Assembly (NCBI GenBank): GCA_017517745.1 | Contig: JAFWYJ010000017.1 | Span: 1-51,568 of the forward strand | Direction: 5' to 3' | Source: Clostridia bacterium | GTDB lineage: Bacteria > Bacillota > Clostridia > Oscillospirales > CAG-272 | Length of the DNA: 51,568 nt | Notes under the pieces: model-generated | The model's input: only the letters and a program-made list of their open reading frames with translations | The model's database searches: none | Told to the model about the DNA's origin: nothing | Shown: positions 15,920 to 49,662 of the stretch, piece after piece | Layout: every line of letters begins with the position of its first letter | Numbering within the stretch: the stretch's first letter is position 1 | Position numbers and translations under genes: made by a program

Positions 15920-16171
15920 ATGGTGATCGGAACCGTGGTGGGCAGCATCGTTGCCACCCGCAAAAACGAAAAGCTGGTCGGACAGAAGCTTTTGATCGTC
16001 CGTCCGTTGGAAAACATGGAAGTGAAGGACGAGTTTATCGCCATTGATAACGTGGGTGCCGGAATCGGCGAAACGGTGTTGGTGGCAAGAGGCTCGGCGG
16101 CAAGAATCGGATGTGGCTTGGAAAGCGCACCGGTTGACGCCGCAATCGTCGGAATCGTCGACGAAACTTGA
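15920..16171 (+). CDS. BMC-P pentameric vertex protein (EutN/PduN/CcmL family)
   Basis: An 83-residue vertex protein that closes the BMC polyhedron. It starts IGTVVGSIVATRKNEKLVG and contains KLLIVRPLEN and DNVGAGIGETVLVARGSAAR, all family hallmarks. The ATG at 15920 is where homology starts; a weak GAAAGGA lies 11 nt before it. It is the only BMC-P in the locus, which is enough for closing a shell. Confidence 0.92.
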   Translation: MVIGTVVGSIVATRKNEKLVGQKLLIVRPLENMEVKDEFIAIDNVGAGIGETVLVARGSAARIGCGLESAPVDAAIVGIVDET

Positions 16172-16198
16172 TTTTAACCCTGAGAAGAGGAGCGCAAA

Positions 16199-17554: not shown

Positions 17555-17557
17555 CAG

Positions 17558-18109: not shown

Positions 18110-18120
18110 GAGGGAATCGC

Positions 18121-18879: not shown

Positions 18880-18908
18880 TATTTAGATAAAGGATAGGGG
18901 ACGATGAT

Positions 18909-20108: not shown

Positions 20109-20120
20109 GGAGAGACACAA

Positions 20121-21569
20121 ATGGCTAACATCACTGAGGCTGAAATCAGAAAGATTGTGGAAAGCATCGTAAGAGGCACCGTCTCCGGAAATGAAAGTGC
20201 GGAGAAGTGGACTTCTACGACCTATTGCGGCAGAACGCTCGTGGGCGTTTATGCCGATATGAACGAAGCCATCGAGGCGGCTGACCGCGGCTATCGTGCC
20301 GTGCGTGCCATGTCGGTGGAGCAGAGAGAAAAAATTATCACCGAAATTCGCCGTCTCACGGTTGCGGAAGCCGCAATCATGGCGGAAATGGGTGTTGCCG
20401 AAACGGGAATGGGCAAGGTCGAGCACAAGAGACTCAAGCACATTCTGGTTGCCGAGAAAACGCCCGGAACCGAGGATATCGTTTCTGAGGCAAAGACCGG
20501 TGACAACGGTCTGACGCTGACCGAAATGGCTCCTTTCGGTGTTGTCGGCGCGATCACGCCCAGCACCAATCCGTCCGAGACGGTTATTTGCAACTCGATC
20601 GGAATGATCGCAGCAGGCAATGGTGTGGTCTTTAATCCGCATCCCAACGCGATCTGCGTTTCCAACTATGCGGTAGACCTCGTCAATCGCGCCTCCCGCG
20701 CGGCGGGCGGACCCGAAGTCCTAGTCTGCTCAATGGTCAAACCGACGCTGGAAACCGCAAACATTATGCAGACTCATCCCAAGATCCGTCTCTTGGTTTG
20801 CACCGGAGGCCCCGGTGTTGTCAAGGCTGTGCTTTCTTCGGGTAAGAAGGCGATCGGCGCGGGTGCGGGCAATCCTCCCGTCATCGTGGATGACACCGCA
20901 GACGTCGTCAAGGCGGGCAAGGATATCATCGACGGATGTACCTTTGACAATAACCTTCCTTGTATTGCAGAGAAGGAGGTTTTCGCCTTCCGCAACATCG
21001 CAGACAAGCTGATTGCCGAAATGCAAAAGAACGGCGCGTATCTCATCAACAAGGATCAAGCCGATCAGCTGGCAAAAATCGTGCTGGTGGAAAAGACCAA
21101 CAAGGCGGGCAAGACCGTCAAGACGGTCAGCCGTGATTGCGTTGGACGCGATGCCGACGTGCTGTTGGCAAAGATCGGTGTCAAGGTGAGCAAGGATATC
21201 CGTTGTGTCATTTGCGAGACTGATTTCATGCATGATTTTGTGCAGCATGAGCTGATGATGCCGATTCTTCCCATCGTTCGCGTCGACAACATCGACCAGG
21301 CGATCGAGCTTGCCGTCAAGGCCGAGCACGGCAACAGACACACCGCGCACATGCATTCCAAGAACGTCGACCACCTCTCGGCATTCGCCAAGGCGGTTGA
21401 GACTACGATTTTTGTCAAGAACGCGCCCTCCTATGCAGGCATTGGATTCGGCGGAGAGGGACATACCACCTTTACCATTGCAGGTCCTACGGGTGAGGGC
21501 ATCACTTCGGCGCGCTCCTTTACGAGAAAGCGCAGATGCGTGATGGCAGAGAGCTTCCGAATCATTTGA
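20121..21569 (+). CDS. CoA-acylating aldehyde dehydrogenase (PduP/EutE type)
   Basis: It oxidises propionaldehyde to propionyl-CoA with NAD inside the BMC. It is 482 residues. Residues 1-18 form the amphipathic helix ITEAEIRKIVESIV that targets it to the shell. The core has PSTNPSETVICNS, PNAICVSN, GGPGVVKAV and the catalytic Cys281 in FDNNLPCIAEK. The C-terminus has the usual FTIAGPTGEGITSARSF segment. AAGGAGAG precedes the ATG, 12 nt after ackA. Confidence 0.93.
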   Translation: MANITEAEIRKIVESIVRGTVSGNESAEKWTSTTYCGRTLVGVYADMNEAIEAADRGYRAVRAMSVEQREKIITEIRRLTVAEAAIMAEMGVAETGMGKVEHKRLKHILVAEKTPGTEDIVSEAKTGDNGLTLTEMAPFGVVGAITPSTNPSETVICNSIGMIAAGNGVVFNPHPNAICVSNYAVDLVNRASRAAGGPEVLVCSMVKPTLETANIMQTHPKIRLLVCTGGPGVVKAVLSSGKKAIGAGAGNPPVIVDDTADVVKAGKDIIDGCTFDNNLPCIAEKEVFAFRNIADKLIAEMQKNGAYLINKDQADQLAKIVLVEKTNKAGKTVKTVSRDCVGRDADVLLAKIGVKVSKDIRCVICETDFMHDFVQHELMMPILPIVRVDNIDQAIELAVKAEHGNRHTAHMHSKNVDHLSAFAKAVETTIFVKNAPSYAGIGFGGEGHTTFTIAGPTGEGITSARSFTRKRRCVMAESFRII

Positions 21570-23211: not shown

Positions 23212-23320
23212 ATTATAACACAAAAAAATAAAAAGTGAACAAAAATAGCAAAATAATATGGAATTGTGCTATTTTTGTGTGGGATCGTGTCTTGAAAAAG
23301 TCACGCGCTTGTGTTACCAT
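23212..23320. promoter_or_regulatory. Divergent promoter region between the PocR-type regulator and the GHL6-like gene
   Basis: On the minus strand a TATAAT lies at 23217-23212, with a weak -35. On the plus strand TTGAAA (23292-23297), 17 nt and TACCAT (23315-23320) form a modest promoter. The -10 and -35 boxes of a regulated promoter pair, with the regulator divergent, fit AraC control. Confidence 0.5.
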
Positions 23321-23353
23321 GTGGATAGAAACAGATGTTTGGAAAGAGGTGCA

Positions 23354-25408
23354 ATGATGACACGTGAAAAATGGTATCAAAACGACTACCGACGTTATTT
23401 GTGTGATATACATATTGCCGATTGGGACGAAAGCTTTTTGTCTCAGTTTTCAGCAGAGGAATATTTTCAAAATTTGAAAAAGGCACACGTGTCCTCCACG
23501 GTGCTTTACTATCAATCTCACGCAGGACTTTGCTATTTTCCCACGAAGGTTGCCAAAATGCATCGCGCGTTCGAGGGCAAAGAGGATGAGATGAGGCGAT
23601 TGACCGACCTTTGTCGACAAAACGGCATTTCGGTGGTGGGATATTACAGTCTGATCTTCAACACATGGGCGCACGACCACTATCCGCAATGGCGTATGCT
23701 GATGAAGGACGGACATTCTAAACGCGACCGCGCCGCAGACGGCTCCACGGTCGATTTTGAGACTGCAGGAGGTAGCCGCTACGGTTTGTGTTGCCCAAAT
23801 AACCGCGAATATATTGATTTTGTTTGTGCGCAGATCGACGAAATGCTTGACTATTTCGAACCGGACGGGCTCTTTTTTGATATGCTTTATTGGTCGCATC
23901 CATGCTACTGCGACTCCTGCCGTGCGCGTTGGAAGCGAGAAACGGGAAGTGATGAGATCCCCGCGTCGCAGGACTTTTCCGATCCTGCGTGGCGCTTTTA
24001 TTGCGAGAAACGAAACGCATGGATGGGTGAATTTGCGCAGTCTGTTACCAACTATATCAAAGAGAGAGCGCCGCATTTGACGGTGGAGCATAACGTTTCC
24101 GCCGCTGCAAAGGAGCGCTATTTCGGTACGGGAAGCGGGGTCAATCTTGCCAGCGAGTTTTGCGGCGGTGACCTTGCGGGCGGACTTCTGGAGGAATCGG
24201 TTGCCTGCAAGCTTTTCCGCGAGATCACGGTTCATCAGCCATTTGAATATATGTTCCCAAAGTGCGAACCCGATCTCTACCGCCACACGCTGGTCAAGAC
24301 TGACGAGCATCTTGAGGCGGCGGTCTTTTTGGCTGCGGCGCACCACGGTGCAGCGACCGTCATTGATGCCATCGATCCGATTGGAACACACGATCCAAGA
24401 AGCTTTGACAGCATCGGTAGAGTTTTTTCTAAGCTTGCTGACTACGAGCCATATCTATGCGGCGAGCCGGTTGCCGATATCGGTGTGGTCTACGGCTTGG
24501 AGAGCAAGGGAAAGGGAAGAAATGGAAATCACTTTACCAATCACTCGGCAACTGTCTCGCTCATCAAAAATATGATTGAGGCAGGCATTGCGGTCGATGT
24601 GATTGCGAAGTGCCGAGACCTTTCCAATTATCGGATGATTTTTGCCGCGGGTCTTTGGGAGACCGAAAAGGATCTGTGCAACGCGCTTGAGGAATATGTT
24701 CAAAAAGGCGGTGTTTTGATGCTTTCGGGCGCCGAAAACACGGCGTTTGTCGAGAAAATAACGGGTTGCAAGATTTTGGAATATTCTCCGTATAAGATTG
24801 CATATCTCGCCCCGGAGGAGGCGTATGAGACTCTGTTTATGGACTTTAACAAAAAATATCCCCTCCAACTTTCGGCACGCGTGCCTCTGGTCGAGGCACG
24901 CGAAGACGTTCGAGTATTGGCTCGTCTTGCATTCCCTTATACCGTACCGTCCGAATCAAAATTTGCGTCTATTCATTCCGATCCCCCAGGGCCCGTAACC
25001 GCCTATCCCGCTGTGTTGGAGTGTGTGTATGGCAAGGGACGAGTGATCTACAGTGTCGCTCCACTTGAGAACGAGGACTATGTTGTTTACCAAAGCATCG
25101 TTCGAAATTTCATAGATCGTTACGTAGATTTGGATCACTTGAAGATTGCCACCGATGCGCCCTTGAATGTGGAGACTGTGACATGGCGCGACGGTGAGAC
25201 GCTTTATATTTGCAACGCGCTGCTCTTAAACCCAAAAGAGAAGGCGCATATTCCAGCGTTTGAAGTGCGCGTCAGATCGGAAAAAGCACCCAAGGAGGTC
25301 ACGCTTTTGCCTGAGGAAGATGCGGTTTCGTTCTCTTTTGACGGCGTATATCTTCGTTTTTCCACACGTGAGACGCGTATTTTTGATATGTACCGCGTCG
25401 ATTTTTAA
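23354..25408 (+). CDS. GHL6-like putative glycoside hydrolase, paralog 1
   Basis: A 684-residue cytoplasmic protein with no signal peptide. It resembles 'hypothetical glycosyl hydrolase 6' proteins: a TIM-barrel-like N-terminal half with YYQSHAGLCYFPTKVAKMH, ISVVGYYSLIFN, GLFFDMLYW and CYCDSCRARW motifs, then a glutamine-amidotransferase/beta-galactosidase trimerisation-like domain around residues 375-520. The acidic residues in FFDMLYW could be catalytic. Its paralog is at 40158-42194. Substrate and activity are unknown. It heads a run of carbohydrate genes. ATG at 23354 or 23357 follows AAAGAGGTG. Confidence 0.7.
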   Translation: MMTREKWYQNDYRRYLCDIHIADWDESFLSQFSAEEYFQNLKKAHVSSTVLYYQSHAGLCYFPTKVAKMHRAFEGKEDEMRRLTDLCRQNGISVVGYYSLIFNTWAHDHYPQWRMLMKDGHSKRDRAADGSTVDFETAGGSRYGLCCPNNREYIDFVCAQIDEMLDYFEPDGLFFDMLYWSHPCYCDSCRARWKRETGSDEIPASQDFSDPAWRFYCEKRNAWMGEFAQSVTNYIKERAPHLTVEHNVSAAAKERYFGTGSGVNLASEFCGGDLAGGLLEESVACKLFREITVHQPFEYMFPKCEPDLYRHTLVKTDEHLEAAVFLAAAHHGAATVIDAIDPIGTHDPRSFDSIGRVFSKLADYEPYLCGEPVADIGVVYGLESKGKGRNGNHFTNHSATVSLIKNMIEAGIAVDVIAKCRDLSNYRMIFAAGLWETEKDLCNALEEYVQKGGVLMLSGAENTAFVEKITGCKILEYSPYKIAYLAPEEAYETLFMDFNKKYPLQLSARVPLVEAREDVRVLARLAFPYTVPSESKFASIHSDPPGPVTAYPAVLECVYGKGRVIYSVAPLENEDYVVYQSIVRNFIDRYVDLDHLKIATDAPLNVETVTWRDGETLYICNALLLNPKEKAHIPAFEVRVRSEKAPKEVTLLPEEDAVSFSFDGVYLRFSTRETRIFDMYRVDF

Positions 25409-30459: not shown

Positions 30460-31314
30460 TTACCAAGCTCGGTTCCAAGCCTCGTTCCACTCAAGGATCT
30501 GATCGTCCTTTTTGAGTGCGCGGCAGGCTTCGACCTGCGCGGCAATTCTCTTTTTGAGGATGACCTCACCGATGCGCTCGTTGGCGCCGTAGGGAGCTGT
30601 GCCGTGATAGGAGTTGGGTTGATTGATGCTCCAGAAACGGGTACATTCCTTAAAGCCGACGTTGTAGAGATAGTCTGCCTTGTGATTGCTTCTGCCTTCG
30701 ACGGCATCACAACGGTCAAGACGAACCGTGTCAGGGCTGATCTTCATCATAACCGAGGTCTCGTTGATGCAGGCGTGACCTCTTTCGCCGCCGCTTGCGA
30801 CAAAATCGCGCACGTAGGCAATGTCCTCGGGCGTCAGCTCGGGGAAGACCTCTCCGCGGTCAAGATCCTGAACGAGATGCTTGACCTCGTAGCAGAAATC
30901 GTTGCGCGTCATCACCACGTAATCCTTCTTGTCCTTCATCGTGCTGCGGACGAAGGTGTGGAGCATCGAAATGTTGCCACCGTGACCGTTGAGAAGCACA
31001 ATCTTCTTGAACCCGTTTCTTGCGATCTCGGCACACAGCTCGGTCAGCATTTCCAAAATGAGAGGGATAGAGAAATTGATGGTTCCTTTCCAGGTGGTGA
31101 GTCCCTGCACGTCTGCATACCAGATCGCGGGTGCCACCATCACGGGCTCGATTTCCGCCGCCTTCTCGGCAATATACTGACAGGTCATTGTGTCGGTTCC
31201 GACGGGCAGATGCTGTCCGTGCATCTCGATACAACCGATAGGAACGATGCAGACCTTTCCGCATTTTTCCACCGCGTCATAAAATTCTTCTTCTCGTAGA
31301 TTTTGCCAAAGCAT
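30460..31314 (-). CDS. Creatininase-family protein, paralog 1
   Basis: A 284-residue metal-dependent amide hydrolase-type protein. Metal-ligand motifs are IGCIEMHGQHLPVGTD near the N-terminus (Glu, His, Asp), LLNGHGGN in the middle and GHACINETS (Glu). The family includes creatininase, MftE and ArfB, so the actual substrate is open; the intact motifs suggest an active enzyme. It lies 64 nt downstream of the acyltransferase gene and is probably co-transcribed with it. AAGGAG precedes the ATG. Confidence 0.85.
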   Translation of the reverse strand: MLWQNLREEEFYDAVEKCGKVCIVPIGCIEMHGQHLPVGTDTMTCQYIAEKAAEIEPVMVAPAIWYADVQGLTTWKGTINFSIPLILEMLTELCAEIARNGFKKIVLLNGHGGNISMLHTFVRSTMKDKKDYVVMTRNDFCYEVKHLVQDLDRGEVFPELTPEDIAYVRDFVASGGERGHACINETSVMMKISPDTVRLDRCDAVEGRSNHKADYLYNVGFKECTRFWSINQPNSYHGTAPYGANERIGEVILKKRIAAQVEACRALKKDDQILEWNEAWNRAW

Positions 31315-31378: not shown

Positions 31379-32611
31379 TCAGCGCTTTATGGCGTCAAAG
31401 GGGAAGAAGCCACAAGGCTCGTAGATGAAATTTCCTTGGAGGTAGTGCGCCTTGACTTTGCGCTGCAGCGAGGAGTTTTCGGGCAGATCCTCCCAATTTT
31501 TGACCGTGGGATCGTCAAAAAGAAAGGTGAGTACGGCAGTTCCGTCCGAAGGATTGGGGAAGCGCAGATACTTTTCCTGGAAGGCGAGAATGTTCGAGGT
31601 TGGACGCATCATCTCGCGCAGCTGTGGATCCATCAGCCACGAGTGGCAATAGAATGCCCGGGGCTTATATTCGGGGAAGGAGTTTTCTAATATGCGCAGA
31701 CAGTCGGCGTATGCCGCTTCCATGTTTTCGGGGGTGAAGTCTCGGCTGGGGGGGATATGTACGCTGATCACGGGATCGTTTTCACCAATGAACAGATCCC
31801 ACTCGCGCTTGGAATAACGCTTTTTGTCGGACGACGCCACGGCGTTTCGTGTGTCGATGGGATAGCCCTCGTAGTAGTCGTCGGTCTCGGTCAATGCGCC
31901 GAAGAAAGCCGTGTCGGAGGCTCCTGCCGATCCTGCAACGATTCCGTTTGCCGAGATTGGCTGATCGTGCACGAGAACGGCAAATTCACCGGCATTGTTG
32001 CGCAGAACGATCGCTGACTCAACGAATTTTTTACGCATCTCAAAATTGAGGATTCCAATGTGAAGAATCGTGCCGTCGATCAAGCGCTGATTCCAACGAA
32101 AAATGCGGTCAGCCTCAAATCCGTCGCGTCGGAAGAGCTTGCTGTAATTGTGAAGCGCGCCGTCAAAGGTGTCTCGGATCGTCACGAGCAAGACCTCCTC
32201 GGGAACGTTGTGCGCGCGGAAAAAATCTGCCATTTTGGGTGCAAAGGCGAGCTGGGCAAAGAATGCCGACATTTCATATGCGGCGCGATCCTCCTCTGTG
32301 GGAGGGACGGCAAGCGCAGGCGTGATGATTTCTCCCGGAGCACGATCGTTGAGCATGTGATAAAGGAGCAGGGAATGACGTGCGAGAAGCGCATGGCTTC
32401 GTACCCTTTCCAAGGAATCCTTTACAAACTCATATTTTTCGGAAAACATCGAAAAATCAATTTGGATCTGCTCCAAAAACGCATCGGTGAGAAACCATAC
32501 GCCGCATTGGTCGTATTCCTTCATCACGGTGTCAAAATTCTTGCCGTAAAGCGCGGGCATTTCTTGAATTCCCAGCCTGTTCAAAAAAGATTGACGGGAT
32601 TGCATCAGCAT
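31379..32611 (-). CDS. GNAT-like acyltransferase-domain protein
   Basis: A 410-residue soluble protein that fits the two-part NAT_N/GNAT_C acyltransferase family: an all-helical N-terminal half (residues 1-150) and a beta-rich C-terminal half with VHIPPSRDFTPENMEAAYADCLRIL and FYCHSWLMDPQL. The substrate is unknown. It has its own good promoter (32704-32732) and precedes a creatininase gene. The identification rests on remembered family architecture and is moderate. Confidence 0.6.
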   Translation of the reverse strand: MLMQSRQSFLNRLGIQEMPALYGKNFDTVMKEYDQCGVWFLTDAFLEQIQIDFSMFSEKYEFVKDSLERVRSHALLARHSLLLYHMLNDRAPGEIITPALAVPPTEEDRAAYEMSAFFAQLAFAPKMADFFRAHNVPEEVLLVTIRDTFDGALHNYSKLFRRDGFEADRIFRWNQRLIDGTILHIGILNFEMRKKFVESAIVLRNNAGEFAVLVHDQPISANGIVAGSAGASDTAFFGALTETDDYYEGYPIDTRNAVASSDKKRYSKREWDLFIGENDPVISVHIPPSRDFTPENMEAAYADCLRILENSFPEYKPRAFYCHSWLMDPQLREMMRPTSNILAFQEKYLRFPNPSDGTAVLTFLFDDPTVKNWEDLPENSSLQRKVKAHYLQGNFIYEPCGFFPFDAIKR

Positions 32612-40157: not shown

Positions 40158-42194
40158 GTGGAAAATCAATGGTATCAAAAAACCTACCGTCGGTCTTTGA
40201 TCGATATGCACATCGAGGATTGGAACGACGAATTTCTTTCCGAATTTACACCCGAGGGACACCTTGCCTATCTGAAGGCGGCAAAGGTCGATGCGACGAT
40301 GCTCAAGATCCACACGCACGTCGGATTGGATTATTATCCCACCAAGGTCGGCGTGATGCACAAGGCGTTCCGGGGCAGGGAAGACACCATCAACCGCCTC
40401 GTGGATCTTTGCCATGAGAACGGAATTTCCGTCGTGGGCTATTACAGCCTGGTTTACAGCAACCGCAACGAAGAAATGCACCCCGATTGGGGCATGTTGG
40501 ACGACGGCAAGACCATGACCTCGGCATTTGCACGCGGCGAGAGCCGCTACGGCTACTGCTGTCCCAACAATCCCGACTACCGCGCCTTCATCAAGGCGCA
40601 GATCGCCGAGATCGCCGAGACCTTCCCGACGCTCGACGGACTTTTCTTCGATCAGACCAACTGGCCCTACGTCTGTCAGTGCAAGCACTGCCGTGAGAGG
40701 TTTGAGAAGGAGACCGGGCTCACCGCGCTCCCCGATGCCTTTGATATGGAGAGCGAGGATGCGGCACTCTTCCGCAAGAAGAGATACGAATGGCTGGGAG
40801 ATTTTGCCGCTTTTGTCTCTGCTTCGGCAAGAGAGCTGATGCCGGGCGTCACCATCAGCCACAACAACGCGCAGTCAATCTGCCGCAGCTGGAAATGCGG
40901 TGTGGACGAGCGCGTGGTCGAGACCTGCACCTATGCGGCGGGCGACCAATACATCGACATCATGGCGCACTCCTTCAGTCAGAAATATTACTATTCGGTC
41001 ACACCCAACCAGCCGTTTGAATACATGGTCACGCGCTTTGCCAAGGACCTGACGCAGCATACGCTGACCAAAACGCCGCGCGAGCTGGCGCAGATCACGC
41101 TCCTGACCACGGCGCACCACGGCGCGAACTTCCTGGTGGATACCATCGACCCCGTGGGAACGGTGGATCTCCGCATTGCGGATACGATCGCGTCGGCGTA
41201 TGAAAAGCAGATGCCTTATGAGAAGTATCTCAAAACGGGAACCATGGTCGGAGACGTCGGCATTTGGTATTCGATTACGGGTAGATACAACTCCCAAGGG
41301 CAGAATTACACCAGCCTTTGGGCGTCCTTCAAGGCGGGCGAGATCTTCAGTACCAATCACCTGCTTTATCGCGTCGTTTCCAACAACCGCATTTCCAATC
41401 TCAAGAAATATCCCTTTGTGCTTGCGCCCGCGCTCGGAGGCTTGGAAAAGGAGCAGGTGGATGCGGCTGTGGATTACGTCAAGGAGGGCGGCGTGCTCTG
41501 CTTCAGCGGCACCGAGGCGCCCGAGCTGCTCAAGATCTTCTTTGATGCCGAGCTTGCGGGCTACACCGACATCACCGCGACCTACGTCGCGCCCACCGAG
41601 GCAGGAGACGAGTTGTTCTATCCTTTCACCGAGAAATATCCGCTCTCGCTTTCTCACAAGCACCCGCTCATCAAGGGTGTGGCGGCGGATACCGTCGTTT
41701 TGGCAAAGCTCAAAATGCCCTATCTCCATCCGACGAATCCCATGGGATATGCTTCGATCCATTCCAATCCTCCCGGCGTGCTGACCGACTATCCCGCCGT
41801 GATGGAGCGCACGATCGGCAAGGGTAAGGTCGTTTGGATGGGTGTTCCTCTCGAATTTTACAGTGACCGTCAGCATCAGGATCTGGTCATGAGACTCGTG
41901 CGCCACTATTACAGCGCCGACGCGCAGACCGTGACCACGGATGCGCCCAAGCTCGTCGAGCTGATCGCGTTCCGTGACGATGCCGAGTGGCTGGTCAGTG
42001 CCGTCAATATCGGAGACGCCGAGGACGGACGTATGATCCCCGCCTACACCGTGACGGTCAAGACCGATTTCGAGCCGAAGGGTGTCTGCCGTCTGCCCGA
42101 CGAAGCACCCGTGCCGTACACCTATCGGGACGGTAAGGTCACCTTCACCGCGCGCGAGATGGATCTGTTCGACATGTATCGGATCGTCAGATGA
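40158..42194 (+). CDS. GHL6-like putative glycoside hydrolase, paralog 2
   Basis: A 678-residue paralog of the protein at 23354-25408, alike from end to end: both begin with a WYQ...YRRxLxDxHI segment and share LDYYPTKVGVMHKAF, ISVVGYYSLVY, GLFFDQTNWPY, CQCKHCRERF and FVLAPALGG (second-domain region). The start GTG at 40158 follows AGGAGG and is where homology starts; the ATG further upstream lies in unrelated sequence. A TATAAT at 40091-40096 is a probable -10 box. Activity and substrate are unknown. A convergent AraC gene lies just beyond. Confidence 0.7.
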   Translation: MENQWYQKTYRRSLIDMHIEDWNDEFLSEFTPEGHLAYLKAAKVDATMLKIHTHVGLDYYPTKVGVMHKAFRGREDTINRLVDLCHENGISVVGYYSLVYSNRNEEMHPDWGMLDDGKTMTSAFARGESRYGYCCPNNPDYRAFIKAQIAEIAETFPTLDGLFFDQTNWPYVCQCKHCRERFEKETGLTALPDAFDMESEDAALFRKKRYEWLGDFAAFVSASARELMPGVTISHNNAQSICRSWKCGVDERVVETCTYAAGDQYIDIMAHSFSQKYYYSVTPNQPFEYMVTRFAKDLTQHTLTKTPRELAQITLLTTAHHGANFLVDTIDPVGTVDLRIADTIASAYEKQMPYEKYLKTGTMVGDVGIWYSITGRYNSQGQNYTSLWASFKAGEIFSTNHLLYRVVSNNRISNLKKYPFVLAPALGGLEKEQVDAAVDYVKEGGVLCFSGTEAPELLKIFFDAELAGYTDITATYVAPTEAGDELFYPFTEKYPLSLSHKHPLIKGVAADTVVLAKLKMPYLHPTNPMGYASIHSNPPGVLTDYPAVMERTIGKGKVVWMGVPLEFYSDRQHQDLVMRLVRHYYSADAQTVTTDAPKLVELIAFRDDAEWLVSAVNIGDAEDGRMIPAYTVTVKTDFEPKGVCRLPDEAPVPYTYRDGKVTFTAREMDLFDMYRIVR

Positions 42195-42378: not shown

Positions 42379-43236
42379 TTATTCATCCGCACCGTTCCGA
42401 AACTGTGTGGGCGTGAGCCCCGAGAGTTTTTTGAAGAAGCGGGTGAAATAGTGGATCGAATCGAATTTGAGATCTTCGGCGATCTTGGTGAAGGAATCGT
42501 TTGTGGTGCGGATGCATTGCTTGGCTATTTCCAGCTTTTTTTGATTGATGTATTCGACGACGGTTTTTCCGGTTGCTCGCTTGAACTCCCGACAGAGTGT
42601 GGCACGGTTGGTCTTGAAGAGGAAGGCAAGCTCGTCGAGCGTGATCTTTTCGCTGTAGTTGACGTCGACGTAATCAATGATCTCCTGAATGTGCGAGGGG
42701 GTCTCGTTGGCTTCCTCGTCATTCTCGGATTCGCCGTATTCCCGCACGAGAAGAATGAGAAAATACTCCATGAGGATGCGCAGGGTCTGCTCCGAGCCGT
42801 AGCGCATCTTCTTTTTCTTTTTCATATTGTAGGTCGGTGTGTCATAGGGAGGCGCGAAGACGTTACGTCCCTCCTTGACAATCTCGGCGAGCTTTTGGAT
42901 CGCGCCGTCGCCGAGCGTGATGGGGGAGAGGGAGAATCGGTCGATGATGCGCGCGTCGCACTCAAAGCCGATGATGATGACGTTCGGGTTGATGTCGCCG
43001 CCGCACTTGATCGAATGGAGCGAATTTTGACGGTGGATGATGGCTTGGTTTTTTGACAAAACACCATTGTAATCCTCCGAAAAAATGTCCAGCTTTCCCG
43101 AGTTGACAAAGACCAATTCATAAAAGGGGTGCCTTTCGTTCACCGTAGTAAAGTCGTTGTCAAATTCAAAAAAATGCAGGGTGACGATGCCTGTGACCGA
43201 TAATTCGTTTTTCAAATGCTTGCTGACGTATTCCAT
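42379..43236 (-). CDS. AraC-family transcriptional regulator
   Basis: A 285-residue regulator. The N-terminal 160 residues form a cupin-like sensor (HPFYELVFVNSGKLDIF, IIHRQNSLHSI); a Lys-rich KKKKKM stretch lies near residue 140. The C-terminal pair of helix-turn-helix motifs includes LDELAFLFKTNRATLCREFK and IAEDLKFDSIHYFTRFFKK. It is divergent from the six-gene M24-to-AAC(3) operon, so it probably controls it. Its consensus promoter (43271-43243) places the transcription start at or within 2 nt of the ATG; no ribosome binding site is seen. Confidence 0.88.
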   Translation of the reverse strand: MEYVSKHLKNELSVTGIVTLHFFEFDNDFTTVNERHPFYELVFVNSGKLDIFSEDYNGVLSKNQAIIHRQNSLHSIKCGGDINPNVIIIGFECDARIIDRFSLSPITLGDGAIQKLAEIVKEGRNVFAPPYDTPTYNMKKKKKMRYGSEQTLRILMEYFLILLVREYGESENDEEANETPSHIQEIIDYVDVNYSEKITLDELAFLFKTNRATLCREFKRATGKTVVEYINQKKLEIAKQCIRTTNDSFTKIAEDLKFDSIHYFTRFFKKLSGLTPTQFRNGADE

Positions 43237-43242
43237 GGCTTT

Positions 43243-43271
43243 ATTATATCACGTTTTTGTTTGTATGTCAA
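43243..43271 (-). promoter_or_regulatory. Perfect-consensus promoter abutting the araC-type start codon
   Basis: On the minus strand TTGACA (43271-43266), 17 nt, TATAAT (43248-43243). The ATG begins at 43236, 7 nt after the -10 box. Confidence 0.88.
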
Positions 43272-43300
43272 TAAATGAATTTACGAAAATGCAAAAAATA

Positions 43301-43359
43301 TTGACGATTATGTAAATACAAGCGTGATAAAAAGATTGTATAATATAATTGTATATAAT
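43301..43359 (+). promoter_or_regulatory. Candidate promoter region for the M24-to-AAC(3) operon
   Basis: TTGACG (43301-43306) with TGATAA (43325-43330) at an 18-nt spacing, and TATAAT hexamers at 43339-43344, 43344-43349 and 43354-43359 without a good -35. A weak -35 is typical for an activator-dependent promoter. GGAGA at 43371 serves as the ribosome binding site. Confidence 0.45.
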
Positions 43360-43384: not shown

Positions 43385-44557
43385 ATGAACAGAATTTGCA
43401 TTCCCGATTGGGAGTACCAAGAAAGAATCCAGAAGGCAGCAAAGATGCTCAGAGACAGAGGTCTTGACGTGATGATCGTCGCTTCCACCGAGAGCGACTA
43501 TGCAAACGCAAGATATTTTTCCGGCTTCTGGCCGCTGTTTGAGAGAGCCGGCGTTGCCATCAGCGCAAGCGGCGATGCTGCACTGCTGGTCGGTCCCGAG
43601 TCCGCCGTGTTCGGCAAGGATTTCGGAAAGCTGGAGAAGGTGTTCGTTCTTCGTGAGTTCCGTGAGTCGGCTGACCCCGCATATCCCGAGCTGCAGGCAA
43701 GCACCTTCAACGACGTCTTCAAGGCGATCGGCGTGACGGGCGAGCACATCAAGATCGGTCTGGGCAGCTACGTTGAATGCACCCTTCCCATTTACGAGGG
43801 ACTGAAGGACGCATATCCGAAGGCAGAGCTTGTCAGATGCAACGACATCATGGTCGCTCTCCGTCAGATCAAGAGTGAGAACGAGCTGGCTTGCATTCGC
43901 GAGGGCTTCCGCATCGTTGAGATCGCGACCGATGAGGTCATCAAGGCACTCAAGCCCGGTGTGACCGAGCTGCAGATGGTCGGTATCGCGCAGAGAGTGA
44001 TCTACGAGCAGGGTGCTGAGTACGAGGGACTTCCCATGTACGTCTTCAGCGAGGCCTCCACCCGCCACGCGATCTCTCGTTCCAGCTATAAGGTCATCGG
44101 CAAGAACGACATCGTTCAGCTCAACCTTTCCGCAAAGATCGACGGCTATTCTCCCGCAATCGGTCTGCCCGTCTGCATGGGCAAGCTTGAGGGTGAGAGA
44201 CGTGACATCATCGAGTTCTGCAAATATATGCACGATTGGACCGAGTCTCAGCTCAAGGCAGGCATTCCCGCAAGCCAGGTTCCGAAGCAGTTCTTGCAGA
44301 TGTATAAGGACGCAGGCTACGAGAAGAACTACGTCTACGGTCCTTGCCACGGTACGGGTATGATCGAGGTTGAGGCACCCTGGATGGAGACCTCCTCGGA
44401 TTACATCCTCCGTGAGAACATGACCTTCCAGATCGACACCTTCATTTCGGGCGACACCTTCGGATGCCGTTGGGAGAAGGGTATCGCGATCAAGGAAAAC
44501 GGTGTTGAGAGCTACACCGACTATCTCAAGAAAGGCATCATTGAGCTGGGCTTCTGA
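43385..44557 (+). CDS. M24-family (creatinase/prolidase-fold) protein with altered metal site
   Basis: A 390-residue protein with the M24 two-domain layout: a creatinase N-terminal domain (1-150) and a pita-bread domain. Of the five metal ligands in aminopeptidase P and prolidase, three are changed: the first Asp is Asn247 (QLNLSAKI), the second is Ala258 (GYSPAIG), and the first Glu is Asp in FQIDTF. His in CHGTGMIE and the last Glu in RWEKG remain. Creatinase, a non-metal M24 member, shows similar losses. It may hydrolyse an amidine or other C-N bond rather than a peptide. It is first in a six-gene operon. Confidence 0.85.
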   Translation: MNRICIPDWEYQERIQKAAKMLRDRGLDVMIVASTESDYANARYFSGFWPLFERAGVAISASGDAALLVGPESAVFGKDFGKLEKVFVLREFRESADPAYPELQASTFNDVFKAIGVTGEHIKIGLGSYVECTLPIYEGLKDAYPKAELVRCNDIMVALRQIKSENELACIREGFRIVEIATDEVIKALKPGVTELQMVGIAQRVIYEQGAEYEGLPMYVFSEASTRHAISRSSYKVIGKNDIVQLNLSAKIDGYSPAIGLPVCMGKLEGERRDIIEFCKYMHDWTESQLKAGIPASQVPKQFLQMYKDAGYEKNYVYGPCHGTGMIEVEAPWMETSSDYILRENMTFQIDTFISGDTFGCRWEKGIAIKENGVESYTDYLKKGIIELGF

Positions 44558-44559
44558 TT

Positions 44560-44928
44560 ATGGAAAACAATATTGTTGGAAAAAAGAATTGGATCGTTCC
44601 CGACTGTGAGCTTCCGCCCGAGGGCGAGGGTGTTCTGAAGGGACACGAAAGCGTGATCGTGGTCAATGACACCGACGAGGTCGCACATATCAAGGTGAAA
44701 CTGTTTTTCACGGACAGAGATCCTTACACGGACATCGAGTGGACGGTCGAGCCGCAGCGCGTCAGATGCTTCCGCATGAACCAGCCCGCGGATATGTCGG
44801 GTTACGTGGTGGAGAAGGAGCTCCAGTACGCGATGAAGCTGGAAAGCTCCGTTCCCGTTGTGGTACAGTACGGAAGACTGGATAACCGTCAGACCAACCT
44901 CGCGTATTATACGACGATGGCATTCTGA
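44560..44928 (+). CDS. ASRT-family small-molecule-binding protein
   Basis: A 122-residue beta-rich protein of the Anabaena sensory rhodopsin transducer family: GKKNWIVPDCELPP at the N-terminus, HESVIVVNDTDEVAHIKVKLFF, RVRCFRMNQP and VVVQYGRLDNRQTNLAYYTTMAF regions. No rhodopsin is near. The superfamily has been proposed to bind small ligands, often beside carbohydrate or catabolic genes. It begins 2 nt after the M24 gene, so tight co-expression is certain in practice. A scaffold, sensor or accessory role is possible. Confidence 0.8.
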   Translation: MENNIVGKKNWIVPDCELPPEGEGVLKGHESVIVVNDTDEVAHIKVKLFFTDRDPYTDIEWTVEPQRVRCFRMNQPADMSGYVVEKELQYAMKLESSVPVVVQYGRLDNRQTNLAYYTTMAF

Positions 44929-44950
44929 ACTTCTCAAGAGAGGTGATATT

Positions 44951-45685
44951 ATGATTTTGGATCATTCTTTTCCCCGTGAAATGGAGCGCGTGCAGAAGGA
45001 AAACATTCCGCTGGTCATTCCGGCGGGAACCGTGGAATATCACGGACCTCATTGCTCCTACGGATGTGATACGTTGGTTGCCGAGGGCTTGATCAAGCGC
45101 CTGATGGAGAAAAAGGAGCTGATGCTGGCTCCCACCATCAGCTACAGTCCCTCGAGCTATGCTGTTGGAGACTCCAAGAGCGGAACGGTGCACGTTGAGG
45201 AGACCGCGTTTGAAAATTACGTTTACTACGTGTTCATGAGCCTGCTATCCGCCGGCTACCGCAACATTTACGTCGTCATTCACCATCAGTTCGAGCAGGA
45301 GAGCGAGATGCCCATGACGCTCTGCTACCGCATGGCGGCAAAACGCGCGACCATGGCATATCTCGAAAAAACGCTCGGACAGGGCTGGTGGGGAAGCGAA
45401 AATTACGCGAATTATTACGAGCAGCTGGAGGGCGATAACAACCCCTTCAACTGGATCAAGGTCATTCCCACCATGAATACCGCGGTGCAGAATGCGACGG
45501 GTTACGACCACGCGGGCGAGTTCGAATGCTCGATCCTGATGGCGCTCTATCCCGATTGCGTCGATCTTGCGCGCATTCCCGAGCGTCCGCACTGGTTCAC
45601 CAAGAGCGCGGAACGTGCCAATCTGGAGATGGGCAAGAAGATGGTGGAGAAATCGCTGGAATATCTGGACGGAGCGATTCGCTGA
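44951..45685 (+). CDS. Creatininase-family protein, paralog 2
   Basis: A 244-residue protein with the creatininase metal motif IPAGTVEYHGPHCSYGCDT and the later DHAGEFECS (Glu). The central NGHGGN motif of most members is replaced by HHQFEQE, so the second metal or substrate site is altered relative to paralog 1 (30460-31314). Being next to a creatinase-fold protein recalls the creatinine-to-creatine-to-sarcosine route, but neither substrate can be proved. ATG at 44951 follows AGAGGTGA. Confidence 0.8.
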   Translation: MILDHSFPREMERVQKENIPLVIPAGTVEYHGPHCSYGCDTLVAEGLIKRLMEKKELMLAPTISYSPSSYAVGDSKSGTVHVEETAFENYVYYVFMSLLSAGYRNIYVVIHHQFEQESEMPMTLCYRMAAKRATMAYLEKTLGQGWWGSENYANYYEQLEGDNNPFNWIKVIPTMNTAVQNATGYDHAGEFECSILMALYPDCVDLARIPERPHWFTKSAERANLEMGKKMVEKSLEYLDGAIR

Positions 45686-45711
45686 TCTCTCCGAGAAAGG
45701 ATTCTTTTGAC

Positions 45712-47856
45712 ATGGAATATTCAAAATTACCTGTTGTAAAAGAAGATCAATTTTTGCGCTTGGAGCATTTTCCGAGCCGATTCCATGCGGCGGTCTTCCG
45801 ACTTTGGGAGACCGTCCCCGCCGAACAGATTGCGGTTGCTCTCAGGCAACCGCTTTCGGTCGTTTTGGACACGGCAGAGTCGATGGGGCTTCCGTCGCAA
45901 CAGCACACCGAGCGTTGGGGCTCGCGCGGCTACATCACCACCATTCGCAACGCGTGGCAGATTTTGCCTTATGATCAGCTCTTGGCGGTGCTTGGCTGGA
46001 GCGAGGATCAGCTGGCGACGGTGCTCAAAGAGGACGACTTCCTGTACGTGAAGCTTGGCAGATTTAAGCCCTACTGTCCGCCTGTGTCTCCCGAGCCCTT
46101 GAACGAGGCACAAAAGGCACGCCTGGCGGCGATCAAGGACTGCATGACGAAGCACTTCGACTCCCTTTTTGAGGGCGCGATCCCGTTCGATTTCTTTTCT
46201 GCCTCCGATCCGGAGGAAGAGGAAACCGAGCGCTTGCCTGCGGCAAGCGGGGAAGGGATTCGCATGATCTATTCCTATTGCGGACTTTACGCCACCGCAC
46301 TTGATACCGACGTTTCGTTCTCTTTTCCCGAAAAGATGCTTCGGATGTATCAAAAGGCAGGCGTAAATGCCGTTTGGCTGCACGCCGCGCTCTATCAGCT
46401 GGTGCCGTTCCCGTTCGACCTCTCCTATTCCGAGGGCTGGGAAATGCGTCAGACGCGCCTGCGCGAGCTGATCGAGAGAGCCGGTGCGTACGGCATCAAG
46501 ATCTTTCTCTATCTCAACGAGCCGCGCTGTATGCCGCTTTCGTTTTTTGAGAAGTATCCCGATCTTCTCGGGCATCAGCTCGACGTCTACGGTGCGCTCT
46601 GCTCAAGCGACAAACGTACCGAGGAATATCTCCGCTACGCGGTTCGCAAGCTTTGCACCGACGTCCCCGGCTTGGGCGGCTTCTTCTGCATCACCTGCTC
46701 GGAGAATCTGACCAACTGCAAGTCGAGCAACGCGGGTATCGTATGTGAGCGTTGCCGCGACGCGTCGACGCCCAAGATCGTTGCCGACGTCTTGACCGCC
46801 ATTTCCGAGGAGTCTCGTGCCGTGGATCCCGCGATCCGCACGGTCGCGTGGACCTGGGCTTGGGAGGATTACATGACGGCAGAGGAGATCAGGGAGTGCA
46901 TCGACCGTCTCCCCAAGGAGATCATTTTGCAATGCAACAGCGAGGCGAAGAAGGAATTCGTCATCGGCGGTGTTCGCGGTGCGATCCGAGATTACAGCAT
47001 GTCGATCCCCGGCCCCGCACCCTTTGCCAAGGATCTTTGGAGCTATGCGCGCTCGCGCGGTCACGAGGTTTCTGCCAAGGTGCAGGTCAACGTCACGTGG
47101 GAGTGCAGTACGCTTCCGTTTTTGCCGGTGTTTGACCTGATACGTGAGCATATGAGCGGACTTTCTCGCGAGAGCGTGGAGCATCTCATGCTCAGTTGGA
47201 CGCTCGGTGGCTATCCGTCGGTCAACCTCAAGGTGGCTTGCGGCTGTCTGGAGGATTCCTCCGAGGAAGCTTACGACGCGCTTCTTGCGCGGGAATACGG
47301 CGACGACGCCGACACCGTCAAGCGTGCGGCGGCTCTGTTTTCGGATGCCTTCCGTGAATTTCCATTTGACATTCGGTGCGCTTACTACGGCCCGCAAAAC
47401 GGGGGACCCTCCAATCTGCTCTATCCCGAGCCGAGCGGCTTCCTTGCCACCATGACATGCTATCCTTACGACGAGATCGACAAATGGCGCAACATCTATC
47501 CGCGCGAGGTTTACGTCGATCAGTTCCGCAAGCTCAGCGAGAAATGGAAGAGGGGATTGGAAGTCATCGAAGATCTGCCGGACTCCGACTTCAAGCAAGC
47601 GGCGCAGGGTGGCTACGCGCTCTTCCGTTCCTCCTATCTGCAAGCTGATTTCATCGTCCAACGTGATGCCGGGAACACCGCGAGAATGTTGGAGATCGCC
47701 GAGGAAGAGAAGAAACTTGCGCTTCTGACCTTTGACTTGATGAAAAAGAACAATCTGTTGGGCTATGAGGCGGCAAATCACTATTATTTTAATAAGGGGA
47801 TGCTTGCCGAAAAGGTACTCAACTGTGAATACGTGGCCGAATTTCTCAAAAAATAA
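45712..47856 (+). CDS. Large uncharacterised protein, possibly glycosidase-like
   Basis: A 714-residue soluble protein. The first ~120 residues are helical and contain repeats resembling wHTH folds (QIAVALRQPLSVVLDTAESM and QLLAVLGWSEDQLATVL). After a Glu/Pro-rich linker, residues about 180-560 look like a TIM barrel (YQKAGVNAVWLHAALY, GIKIFLYLNEPR, GLGGFFCITCSEN, AWTWAWEDY), reminiscent of GH20-like hydrolases; acidic residues in CSEN and NEPR could be catalytic. It is the largest gene of the operon and, with low confidence, a glycosidase-like hydrolase. I chose ATG at 45712 because the upstream frame overlaps the creatininase gene; GAGAAAGGA precedes it. Confidence 0.7.
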   Translation: MEYSKLPVVKEDQFLRLEHFPSRFHAAVFRLWETVPAEQIAVALRQPLSVVLDTAESMGLPSQQHTERWGSRGYITTIRNAWQILPYDQLLAVLGWSEDQLATVLKEDDFLYVKLGRFKPYCPPVSPEPLNEAQKARLAAIKDCMTKHFDSLFEGAIPFDFFSASDPEEEETERLPAASGEGIRMIYSYCGLYATALDTDVSFSFPEKMLRMYQKAGVNAVWLHAALYQLVPFPFDLSYSEGWEMRQTRLRELIERAGAYGIKIFLYLNEPRCMPLSFFEKYPDLLGHQLDVYGALCSSDKRTEEYLRYAVRKLCTDVPGLGGFFCITCSENLTNCKSSNAGIVCERCRDASTPKIVADVLTAISEESRAVDPAIRTVAWTWAWEDYMTAEEIRECIDRLPKEIILQCNSEAKKEFVIGGVRGAIRDYSMSIPGPAPFAKDLWSYARSRGHEVSAKVQVNVTWECSTLPFLPVFDLIREHMSGLSRESVEHLMLSWTLGGYPSVNLKVACGCLEDSSEEAYDALLAREYGDDADTVKRAAALFSDAFREFPFDIRCAYYGPQNGGPSNLLYPEPSGFLATMTCYPYDEIDKWRNIYPREVYVDQFRKLSEKWKRGLEVIEDLPDSDFKQAAQGGYALFRSSYLQADFIVQRDAGNTARMLEIAEEEKKLALLTFDLMKKNNLLGYEAANHYYFNKGMLAEKVLNCEYVAEFLKK

Positions 47857-47876
47857 TCCATTCGGAGGAAGAAAAA

Positions 47877-48797
47877 ATGCTGATTGATATTCATGCGCAC
47901 GCTTTTCGACTGCGCAATCCGAAGCACAGTATGTGCAATCTTGCCGAGCTTCTGGCGGCACAGGACAGACTGGGAATCGACGTCAGTGTCGTGCTTCCCA
48001 TCGTCAGCCCGGAGATCTATTTTCCGCAGAATACGCAGGATATTATCGAGATGGCAAACGCCTATCCCACGCGCATCATTCCTTTCTGCAACGTCGATCC
48101 ACGCGCGATGTCGAACTGCCCGAACGCGGATCTGGTGATGCCTTTGCAGTTTTACAAGGACCTCGGCTGCCGCGGTGTCGGTGAGATCATGCCGCAGCTG
48201 GAGATGAAGGATCCCAAGGTGCAGAATCTCTTTCGTGCCGCGCAAACGGTCGGACTTCCCGTCACCTGTGACGGCTCGGATCAGCTGACCGGCGGATTTG
48301 GACTTTATGACGAGCCCGGTCTTCCGCAGCTGGAATTGACGCTGCAGAGATTTCCCGATCTGATCATGCTCGGTCACGGTCCCATTTTCTGGGCGGAGAT
48401 CGCGCGCCTGGAGACTCCCGGCGAGCGTTGCGTCGCATGGAGCTTCGAGGGCAAGCAGCTTTGGAGACAGGGACTTCATAACAAGGGACCGATCAAGGAG
48501 GAGGGTGTCATGCCCAAACTCCTGCGCCGTTATCCCAATTTGCACTGTGACCTCTCCGACGGCACGGCTTACAACGCGCTGACACGTGACGAGGACTATA
48601 TCGTCGAGTTTATCCGCGAGTTCGAGGACCGTATGTATTTCGGAACCGACATTGTCAGCCCCGATTTTGAGGTGCCGCTCATCGGTACGCTCAAGCGTTG
48701 GCTGGATCGCGGCATGATCACCAAGACGGCTTATGATAAGATCACACACGAAAACGCGATGAGATTGTTGGGGTTGAAAGATGCTGACCTTAAATGA
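47877..48797 (+). CDS. Amidohydrolase-2 family metal-dependent hydrolase
   Basis: A 306-residue TIM-barrel protein: DIHAHAF at the N-terminus (H-x-H metal pair), the strand CRGVGEIMPQ, GLPVTCDGSD, LIMLGHGP and the terminal FGTDIVSPD. The subfamily holds decarboxylases, lactonases and hydrolases. The start follows CGGAGGAAG. The 3' end overlaps the next gene by 17 nt. Confidence 0.88.
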   Translation: MLIDIHAHAFRLRNPKHSMCNLAELLAAQDRLGIDVSVVLPIVSPEIYFPQNTQDIIEMANAYPTRIIPFCNVDPRAMSNCPNADLVMPLQFYKDLGCRGVGEIMPQLEMKDPKVQNLFRAAQTVGLPVTCDGSDQLTGGFGLYDEPGLPQLELTLQRFPDLIMLGHGPIFWAEIARLETPGERCVAWSFEGKQLWRQGLHNKGPIKEEGVMPKLLRRYPNLHCDLSDGTAYNALTRDEDYIVEFIREFEDRMYFGTDIVSPDFEVPLIGTLKRWLDRGMITKTAYDKITHENAMRLLGLKDADLK

Positions 48798-49608
48798 AAT
48801 GAAAGCATGTTTGCGCACGCTCGATATTGAGCCGAATTCGATCTTGTTGGTACATTCGTCGCTCAAGGCGCTCGGACAGATCGAGGGCGGTGCGGAGGCA
48901 GTGATTGAGGCGCTGGAATCGGTGGTTCCCGAGGGAACGCTGGTGATGCCGACCTTCAGCCAGAAGAATTGGGACACCGTATTTGAGGATTGGCACATGG
49001 ACCGCCCCTCCGACACGGGACTGATCACCGAGACCTTTCGCCGACAGAAGGGAAGTCTGAGAAGCGACAATCCCACCCACTCGGTCGCGGCACGCGGTGC
49101 GCATGCCGCGGATCTTGTGAGCGGTGACCCGAAGGGTGGCGCACGCTACGGTCTTTTTGGTGAGTATTGCTTCTCGTACGAATCCCCGTGGCAGAGAATG
49201 TACGACAGCCGCACGCGCTACGGCGTCAAGGCGTACGTTCTGTTCTGGGGTGTGCCGATGAAGTACCATACCTTCAAGCATTTCAGCGAATATCGCTTGG
49301 TCGAAGATGCGCTCGCGGCGATCTCCGACGAGGCAAAACGCGAGGAGATCAAGGCAGAGCTTGCGCACTATCCTTACAAGGGCGGTCCCGACATGATCTG
49401 GCCCTTCTACGACTCTAATCGCTTCTGCGCGGAGCTTGAGAGAATGGGAATTGCCAAGCGCCGTACACTGGGGCAAGGCGACATCATTTGCGTTGACACC
49501 TTTGATTGCGTCAACGCGACCGACGAGGCGATTCGCTCCGATCCCGAGGCGTGGATGCTTCCGCCCGGTTGGAAGTGGTACCGCAAGGCACAGGCCGCAA
49601 GCAAATAA
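48781..49608 (+). CDS. AAC(3)-fold N-acetyltransferase
   Basis: A 275-residue protein of the aminoglycoside 3-N-acetyltransferase/YokD family: ILLVHSSLKALGQIEGG, GTLVMPTFSQ, RRQKGSLRSDNPTHSVAARG and HTFKHFSEYR regions. It is the last gene of a catabolic operon, so the acceptor is more likely an amino-sugar or other amine than a drug. Its start overlaps the amidohydrolase gene by 17 nt, implying translational coupling. A perfect terminator follows. Confidence 0.88.
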   Translation: MLTLNEMKACLRTLDIEPNSILLVHSSLKALGQIEGGAEAVIEALESVVPEGTLVMPTFSQKNWDTVFEDWHMDRPSDTGLITETFRRQKGSLRSDNPTHSVAARGAHAADLVSGDPKGGARYGLFGEYCFSYESPWQRMYDSRTRYGVKAYVLFWGVPMKYHTFKHFSEYRLVEDALAAISDEAKREEIKAELAHYPYKGGPDMIWPFYDSNRFCAELERMGIAKRRTLGQGDIICVDTFDCVNATDEAIRSDPEAWMLPPGWKWYRKAQAASK

Positions 49609-49619
49609 CCGATGTTTTT

Positions 49620-49662
49620 GTGGGGGTGACTTCTTGAAAAAAGTCACCCCCACGTCCTTTTT
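49620..49662 (+). terminator. Strong intrinsic terminator of the M24-to-AAC(3) operon
   Basis: Perfect 13-bp stem GTGGGGGTGACTT (49620-49632) and its complement (49641-49653), with an 8-nt loop and T-run at 49657-49662. A second A/T-rich hairpin AGAAACTTTTT/AAAAAGTTTCT lies at 49679-49702. Confidence 0.85.

Follow-up and report, generated by a model that had tools for sequence, protein, structure and literature searches.

What do six closely packed genes behind a divergent AraC gene do, and do they form one pathway? The question is raised by positions 43385 to 49608 of a stretch of 51,568 nucleotides (nt) of Clostridia bacterium DNA (contig JAFWYJ010000017.1 of GenBank assembly GCA_017517745.1; the whole stretch is called the window), for which a reading of the sequence alone had proposed a single undescribed catabolic operon. 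The operon consists of a recurring core, the divergent AraC gene followed by genes for an M24-fold protein, an ASRT protein and a creatininase-like protein (CRN), and of swappable accessory genes for a protein of 714 amino acids (aa), an amidohydrolase and an AAC(3)-fold protein. It is probably, with a likelihood of about 0.65, the hub of an AraC-controlled regulon for intracellular glycoside catabolism in gut Clostridia, perhaps acting on amino sugars. The six-gene layout itself was confirmed, all six open reading frames having an ATG start and running in frame with no internal stop, with gaps of 2, 22, 26, 20 and -17 nt, and the family labels given earlier to five of the genes and to the AraC gene are all backed by Pfam matches:

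42379..43236, - strand: AraC-family regulator, divergent from the operon (AraC helix-turn-helix PF12833, 9e-18)
43385..44557, + strand: M24-fold protein, 390 aa (PF00557, 1e-22; PF01321, 9e-11), both metal-binding Asp replaced
44560..44928, + strand: ASRT protein, 122 aa, predicted sugar-binding beta-sandwich, M24-linked group (PF07100, 1.4e-33; tree)
44951..45685, + strand: creatininase-like metal hydrolase (CRN), 244 aa (PF02633, 2.5e-29)
45712..47856, + strand: 714-aa protein, glycoside-hydrolase-like by predicted fold, signal peptide not seen by eye
46264..47211, + strand: residues 185-500 of the 714-aa protein, its TIM barrel by the secondary structure of the model
47877..48797, + strand: amidohydrolase (Amidohydro_2), 306 aa (PF04909, 1.3e-9)
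48781..49608, + strand: AAC(3)-fold N-acyltransferase-like protein, 275 aa (PF02522, 6.9e-37)

Core and accessory genes in relatives

The window proteins were searched against neighbourhoods from related genomes (genomes, contigs and loci bear G, C and L numbers), and plain phmmer searches with these proteins returned the same core loci as the census profiles described below. The order AraC / M24-ASRT-CRN is found in L116, L137, L141, L142, L144, L145, L150 and L234, the order M24-ASRT-CRN also in L140, L143, L149, and L241 (no adjoining AraC), and an altered order, AraC / ASRT-M24-CRN, in L242; L116, L137, L138, L141, L142, L144, L145 and L150 have a related AraC gene lying divergently from the core. 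The arrangement is not due to chance, because genomes of other genera and families repeat the core order and because the genes for CRN, the 714-type protein, the amidohydrolase and the AAC(3)-fold protein run consecutively in G004, G014 and G023, all of the window's genus. The synteny in relatives that the sequence-only reading called for is therefore present, but its six genes are not one fixed pathway: the conserved unit is M24-ASRT-CRN, mostly behind AraC, and the last three genes are accessory, being elsewhere swapped for other glycosidases or for nothing.

In particular, L116 of G014 has the full gene order with amidohydrolase and AAC(3) genes, its 714-like protein being distant, and glycoside hydrolase (GH) family GH20 and SNF symporter genes lie downstream of the set; in L120 of G023 the amidohydrolase (fragmentary) and AAC(3) genes follow a CRN gene cut by the contig end, with a GH20 gene downstream; in G004 CRN-714-amidohydrolase-AAC(3) lies on one contig and AraC / M24-ASRT-CRN on another, CRN being cut on both. 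The gene after CRN encodes a 714-like protein in L149, a GHL6 protein in L150 and a DUF4432 protein in L140, and L241 shows the order M24-ASRT-CRN-GH20-Ceramidase_alk-like-714-like-GH3. In L177, from another part of the phylum, sugar-type ABC, deacetylase, ASRT, M24 and CRN genes share one stretch, and in L118 and L119 the amidohydrolase-AAC(3) pair occurs without the core. Among annotated plasmids, ASRT matched 79 records, creatininase 44 and M24 184, with no record shared among the matches listed (40, 40 and 30, respectively), and the 714-aa protein had no match.

The ASRT protein of the window scores 115.8 bits with PF07100 (cut-off 25). Of 394 genomes of the order 60 have an ASRT gene, as do 20 of 398 sampled from the phylum. 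At the 72 ASRT places of the order census, a core-type M24 gene lies on the same strand within 1.5 kb in 24 and within 100 nt in 21, a core CRN gene within 100 nt in 11 and both in 10; these counts come from profiles built partly from sequences scored with them and from loci many of which span 1.5 kb per side, so that farther partners would be missed, and they follow the setting aside of 7 of 79 hits (six weak ones in frames of 502-542 aa and one frame of 65 aa). L155, which repeats L057, was dropped as well. Of the 19 places in the phylum sample one (L177) has a full-score M24 gene, and L178 has, at a contig end, the first part of such a gene. In a tree of 88 ASRT proteins (L184, L207 and L208 left out, L178 counted as M24-linked by hand) a branch with a Shimodaira-Hasegawa-like approximate likelihood ratio (SH-aLRT) support of 95 sets 34 sequences apart from the remaining 54; every one of the 26 M24-linked proteins is among the 34, together with 8 more, and none is among the 54; the finer forks of this tree, made by a quick search on 123 columns, are weak.

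The core may also have moved between lineages. In G224, G127, G217, G177, G146 and G285 its M24 protein is 75-78% identical to that of the window, against only 55-62% for SecA; the corresponding values are 88% and 72% in G433, of another genus, and 79% and 78% in G014, of the same genus (86% over a separate SecA piece of 185 aa). Such identities would fit horizontal spread or an unusually strong constraint.

Active-site residues and folds

Creatinine breakdown had to be tested because a creatininase-annotated plasmid locus of Azoarcus (L197) has the same layout, with M24 and creatininase genes adjoining. Its M24 protein, a putative creatinase itself, served as creatinase reference; at the positions which we take to be His232, Glu262 and Glu358 of creatinase, with the roles usually given to them, the window protein has I230, G260 and W363 (E364 lies one column on), and its H322 aligns with the His of the creatinase GHSFG motif. 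In the alignment with prolidase 1PV9, if the five M24 metal ligands are, as we assume, Asp, Asp, His, Glu and Glu, the first Asp is changed to Asn and the second to Ala/Ser, H322 is kept, the first Glu is changed to D351 and E364 is kept. An ordinary M24 peptidase was rejected on these ligand changes, and the protein is best filed, as judged from the alignments, as neither a peptidase nor a creatinase, since it lacks both the metal-binding Asp pair and the creatinase His and Glu.

The creatininase-like protein matches PF02633 with 102.8 bits (cut-off 31.3) and keeps Glu, His, Asp, His and Glu at the five positions that are presumably metal ligands, one residue being inserted between the fourth and the fifth. 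With the model of true creatininase (TIGR04448) it reaches 65.1 bits, below the equivalog cut-off of 235. The earlier labels of creatinase and creatininase thus hold for the fold, whereas the aligned residues and the equivalog cut-off speak against them for function. Breakdown of creatinine and creatine by such a pair, suggested by the same two families adjoining in the Azoarcus locus, was rejected on the residues at the creatinase positions and on the missed equivalog cut-off; the ASRT gene between the two genes and the glycosidase regulon described below also set the window apart, and this reading is very improbable. A similar pair was noticed in plasmid pTC2 of Paenarthrobacter aurescens TC1 (L196, 4748-6762), where genes annotated as Xaa-Pro dipeptidase and creatinine amidohydrolase lie 5 nt apart behind a GntR gene.

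Metal-free M24 enzymes, such as creatinase and the ectoine hydrolase DoeA/EutD, and creatininases open C-N bonds, so that the operon could be imagined to serve a heterocycle or cyclic-amide pathway resembling ectoine or hydantoin breakdown, to which the glycosidases would be incidental. The M24 profile in fact matches DoeA and creatinase structures, though below prolidases, and the M24 fold would be used for non-peptide C-N chemistry in both cases. On the other hand, the DoeA models give 46.9 bits (NF038259, cut-off 575) and 44 bits (TIGR02993, cut-off 613), ectoine genes were not noticed, and the context of regulon, ABC and ASRT genes is that of carbohydrates, which makes this pathway quite unlikely. 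A creatininase-fold enzyme in a sugar-like pathway has a precedent in IolN, the 3-dehydro-scyllo-inosose hydrolase of inositol catabolism, a member of the creatininase family; the window protein scores 53.2 bits with its model (NF041098), below the equivalog cut-off of 245, and no inositol genes were noticed. Speculatively, the reaction might be a C-C hydrolysis of a keto-sugar like that of IolN, or the opening of muramic lactam by a lactam hydrolase.

At E 0.1 the 714-aa protein matched neither Pfam nor NCBIfam families, and of its ten hits at E<=10 among PDB sequences none is better than E 0.3. Its AlphaFold2 model has a predicted local distance difference test (pLDDT) score of 79, and the Foldseek neighbours of the model belong to GH138, GH20 (GH20C), GH67, GH84 and GH89, with about 10-14% identity and template-modelling (TM) scores of about 0.3-0.5. 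The protein is thus modelled as a TIM barrel of glycoside-hydrolase type; called unrecognised before, it remains so among sequence families, while its predicted fold is glycoside-hydrolase-like. E331 and E464, invariant in 9 sequences, are candidate catalytic residues, and the family is a candidate for a new family of glycoside hydrolases.

The 714-aa protein also accompanies the core beyond the operon. In a set of 147 genomes (own and relatives; core-type M24 defined by E<=1e-60, own genus G000-G034, G023 scored without M24, its CRN contig ending there), 13 bear M24, and 12 of these have a homologue or distant relative (E<=1e-3), against 9 of the 134 without M24 (Fisher 3e-11); a strong homologue was found in 8 of 13 against 6 of 134 (7e-7) and, outside the own genus, a homologue in 7 of 8 against 8 of 104 (1e-6), all three Fisher values being too small because the genomes are kindred. 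This co-occurrence is not explained by plain linkage: seven genomes outside the genus have both the M24 and the 714-aa gene, and there they sit on separate contigs or, in the case of G104, some 340 kb from each other. A close amidohydrolase (at least 54% identity, full length) occurs in 5 of 13 M24-bearing genomes against 1 of 134 others. For close relatives of the 714-aa protein, the titles of 6 of 8 loci name deer, buffalo, goat, cattle or sheep as the host whose gut was sampled, and the other two give no host. A further homologue (L049, 7448-12412) lies between GH2 and GFO/IDH-type oxidoreductase genes, both recognized by eye, and may offer a clue to the substrate.

In the amidohydrolase H6, H8, H167 and D258 are invariant in 13 sequences; the nearest structures to its model (pLDDT 67) include decarboxylases, dihydroorotases, ACMSD and LigJ, a likeness too weak to pick a reaction. 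The AAC(3)-fold protein keeps T164, K166, H167 and E170 in all 5 sequences compared (TxKHxxE motif), and this motif together with the PF02522 match would favour aminoglycoside detoxification by this gene and its accessory genes. However, it scores 75.5 of the required 420 with AAC_3_IV, 70.6 of 270 with AAC_3 and less with three further AAC(3) models of NCBIfam, its best-scoring solved structure is FrbF, and the cases seen in other genera (L118 and L119) pair the gene with that of the amidohydrolase alone, not with the core. Aminoglycoside resistance was ruled out on the missed cut-offs, and detoxification is extremely improbable.

The putative AraC operator and the genes behind it

The regulatory signals around the operon were located as follows:

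43280..43316, + strand: putative AraC operator, two direct half-sites TTKAMGAWWRTGYAAA with a 21-bp period (0 mismatches; 0 in 100 shuffles)
43339..43344, + strand: TATAAT, 22 nt past the operator and likely to be the -10 box of the operon, read from the sequence
43243..43271, - strand: sigma-70-like promoter of araC, TTGACA-17-TATAAT with TG (12/12 matches)
49619..49654, + strand: intrinsic-terminator-like site, 14-pair stem and T-run, 3' of the operon

In the gap between araC and the M24 gene, TTTACGAAAATGCAAA and TTGACGATTATGTAAA are spaced 21 bp, 22 nt ahead of TATAAT. The promoter scan gave no + strand site in this gap, which would fit control by an activator; across the region the totals of promoter-like and terminator-like sites are about those of shuffles (5 against 4.2 and 8 against 7.9, respectively). 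A second perfect copy of the operator is present in the own genome. Similar pairs occur at the other core promoters; the best half-site pair exceeds all 100 shuffles in 8 of 9 core promoters and 99 of 100 in L150, with scores of 25 to 32 out of 32 and a gap of 4 or 5.

The pattern derived from the nine core promoters refinds four of them (G000:C15, G433:C5, G014:C83 and G311:C148). Eight genomes were searched with at most 3 mismatches, and six of them gave 14 sites in all, of which only 10 are independent of the derivation and one of these is the core promoter of G004; the reversed pattern marks 0. A scan of the 35 genomes of the genus with at most 2 mismatches gave sites in four (G000, G004, G014 and G023), all with core genes. 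The listed start of a gene on the same strand lies 44-94 nt past the operator at 11 sites; the distance is 64 nt in G433 and 6 nt in G311:C148, which are two further sites, and in G023:C63 the operator overlaps the listed start of the GH95 frame. The sites outside core promoters are the following:

own genome, C55: before three tandem GH20-like proteins of 320-323 aa and an MFS transporter
G014:C90, two sites: before Ceramidase_alk-type genes
G023:C6: two ceramidase-like genes (by likeness to those of G014) around a DUF4838 gene (Pfam-tested)
G023:C63: GH95, then DUF4838
G023:C75: protein with a GH31-type Gal_mutarotas_2 domain
G023:C48: unrecognised 736-aa protein
G311:C284: GDSL acylhydrolase
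G311:C277, 3 mismatches: 714-aa homologue (726 bits to the family profile)

The last of these matters most, as in a genome of another family a 714-aa gene outside the operon bears the operator. A common operator precedes both araC-linked and unlinked genes, which points to an AraC-controlled regulon, though not in every core-bearing genome, and with the operator named more of the regulon can be listed.

Function, precedents and distant relatives

In the proposed mechanism the divergent AraC protein would bind the two direct half-sites just upstream of the -10 and switch on the operon together with unlinked transporter and glycosidase genes. The 714-aa protein, or elsewhere GH20, GH3, GH95, GH31-type, DUF4838 or GHL6 proteins, would cut imported glycosides in the cytosol, and the M24-ASRT-CRN set would process the released products, ASRT holding a sugar on which the metal-free M24 and the metal-dependent creatininase-like protein may act; further steps would fall to the amidohydrolase and the AAC(3)-fold protein where these are present, as in the own genus. 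An amino-sugar-like substrate, guessed at before, is still reasonable: core operons or the regulon include genes for GH20, GH3, deacetylase and ceramidase-like proteins, and hexosaminidase folds are among those nearest to the 714-aa protein.

Several findings weigh against this reading. There is no transporter in the window's operon, where kinase, isomerase and aldolase genes were not seen either; L141-L145 have no related gene after the core, so that glycosidases are not always linked to it. G032 has core and GH genes with no adjoining AraC gene, G011 has AraC and core, and neither of these two M24-bearing genomes yielded an operator site in the genus scan; among the eight genomes searched the pattern is absent from G146 and G217, both core-bearing, and relaxed scoring gave no operator in L241 and L242. 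An operator variant fitted to G285 and G224 found, in nine more-distant genomes, those two core promoters and one site in G247 but no regulon gene, the G247 site lying beside an AraC gene at a contig end and probably being its own core promoter. Moreover, the GH20-like triple of C55 has no Pfam match and reaches only E 0.015 to a GH20 structure.

A neutral or deoxy-sugar route would instead degrade a rhamnose- or fucose-type glycoside, with CRN and the amidohydrolase as lactonase-like or ring-opening hydrolases. It would account for GH95 in the regulon, for the weak fucosidase-profile matches of the GHL6 proteins encoded at 40161-42194 of the window and after CRN in L150, for a PTE-family gene in the M24-ASRT cluster of L182 and for the rhamnose isomerase and rhamnulokinase genes that, by eye, adjoin other ASRT genes of the order. 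The M24-linked ASRT proteins, however, stand apart on the tree from the rhamnose-gene-linked ones, and the GH20, GH3, polysaccharide deacetylase and Ceramidase_alk-like genes suggest N-acylated sugars; this route is unlikely.

ASRT is a predicted sugar-binding family that has also been proposed as a sensor (De Souza, Iyer and Aravind 2009, PMC2739507). The core could accordingly be a sensing or inducer-processing device in which ASRT and M24 make or destroy the AraC ligand and are not enzymes of the main flux, since it adjoins araC, can stand alone and is highly conserved within a variable periphery. Two enzyme-type genes exceed the needs of a sensor, though, and M24-ASRT pairs also occur without this AraC, beside deacetylase and sugar-type ABC genes, and such a device is decidedly unlikely.

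A bolder and tentative proposal is that M24 and ASRT form a new two-part sugar-processing enzyme, the metal-free M24 protein being catalytic and an ASRT tetramer holding the sugar, with the creatininase-like hydrolase as next step; the core would be fed by many glycosidases, of which the 714-aa proteins would found a new family.

Among the closest known systems are the sugar operons of the ASRT/ASRAH superfamily described in PMC2739507. Like the window's operon they are predicted to serve sugar catabolism and encode a stand-alone intracellular ASRT, and some have monosaccharide ABC transporters. The partners named in its text (isomerase, aldolase, kinase, ABC, amylase, dehydratase and others) differ from the window core, and its main text has no word beginning with creatin- and no M24, peptidase, prolidase or amidohydrolase, while its Figure 1 and full neighbourhood list might hold such a case. 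The M24-linked proteins also differ in their separate branch from the 54 other ASRTs, and in the window the Cys of the published signature SHEshChhN is changed to Ile (GHESVIVVN, by eye). No paper on an M24-ASRT-creatininase-like operon was found in a literature search whose scope excluded subscription papers and preprints; the earlier impression of a catabolic operon absent from that literature stands, and none of its genes proved to be part of a known pathway. AraC-controlled sugar regulons are already known, the M24-ASRT-CRN core is a new variation on them, and the surprising part is its putative chemistry. Three poorly understood families, ASRT, metal-free M24 and creatininase-like proteins, thereby gain one testable common context, and the window's operon with the C55 genes provides concrete material for the question, raised in 2009, of the role of ASRT outside rhodopsin systems (PMC2739507).

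A distant M24-ASRT type accompanied by M81 (MlrC) was noticed in L185, L187, L188, L190 and L035 (by Pfam in L187, otherwise by eye). These M81-M24-ASRT clusters look like a second family of the system without CRN, with glycosidase-like neighbours in some, and a 713-aa neighbour in L188 is similar by eye to the operator-linked 736-aa protein of G023. The own genome holds a second, distant ASRT-M24 pair near another AraC gene (G000:C59; L131, 9921-11522), with an M24 protein 27% identical to that of the window. M24-ASRT fusions were sought in frames of about 500-540 aa that match PF07100 weakly; the six inspected (L201-L206, in G450, G272, G455, G253, G190:C127 and G286) are by eye metallo-beta-lactamase-like, not M24. 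These proteins of about 490-530 aa carry a weak ASRT-like domain at the C terminus (profile E 4e-7 to 4e-4 in L201, L202 and L205). They seem to be a further kind of ASRT fusion, next to the amidase and lipoprotein kinds given in PMC2739507.

Elsewhere in the window, the GHL6 protein at 40161-42194 (+), of GHL6/GH42 type, lies directly upstream of araC, and a second GHL6/GH42-type protein is encoded at 23258-25408. The genes at 7575-21569 (glycyl-radical enzyme, radical-SAM activase-like, class II aldolase, acetate-kinase family, aldehyde dehydrogenase and RnfC-like) resemble a glycyl-radical diol-dehydratase microcompartment locus, for which they are a candidate. Far from the operon, a second creatininase-family protein (30460-31314, - strand; 160 bits to PF02633) adjoins a GNAT_C protein (31379-32611).

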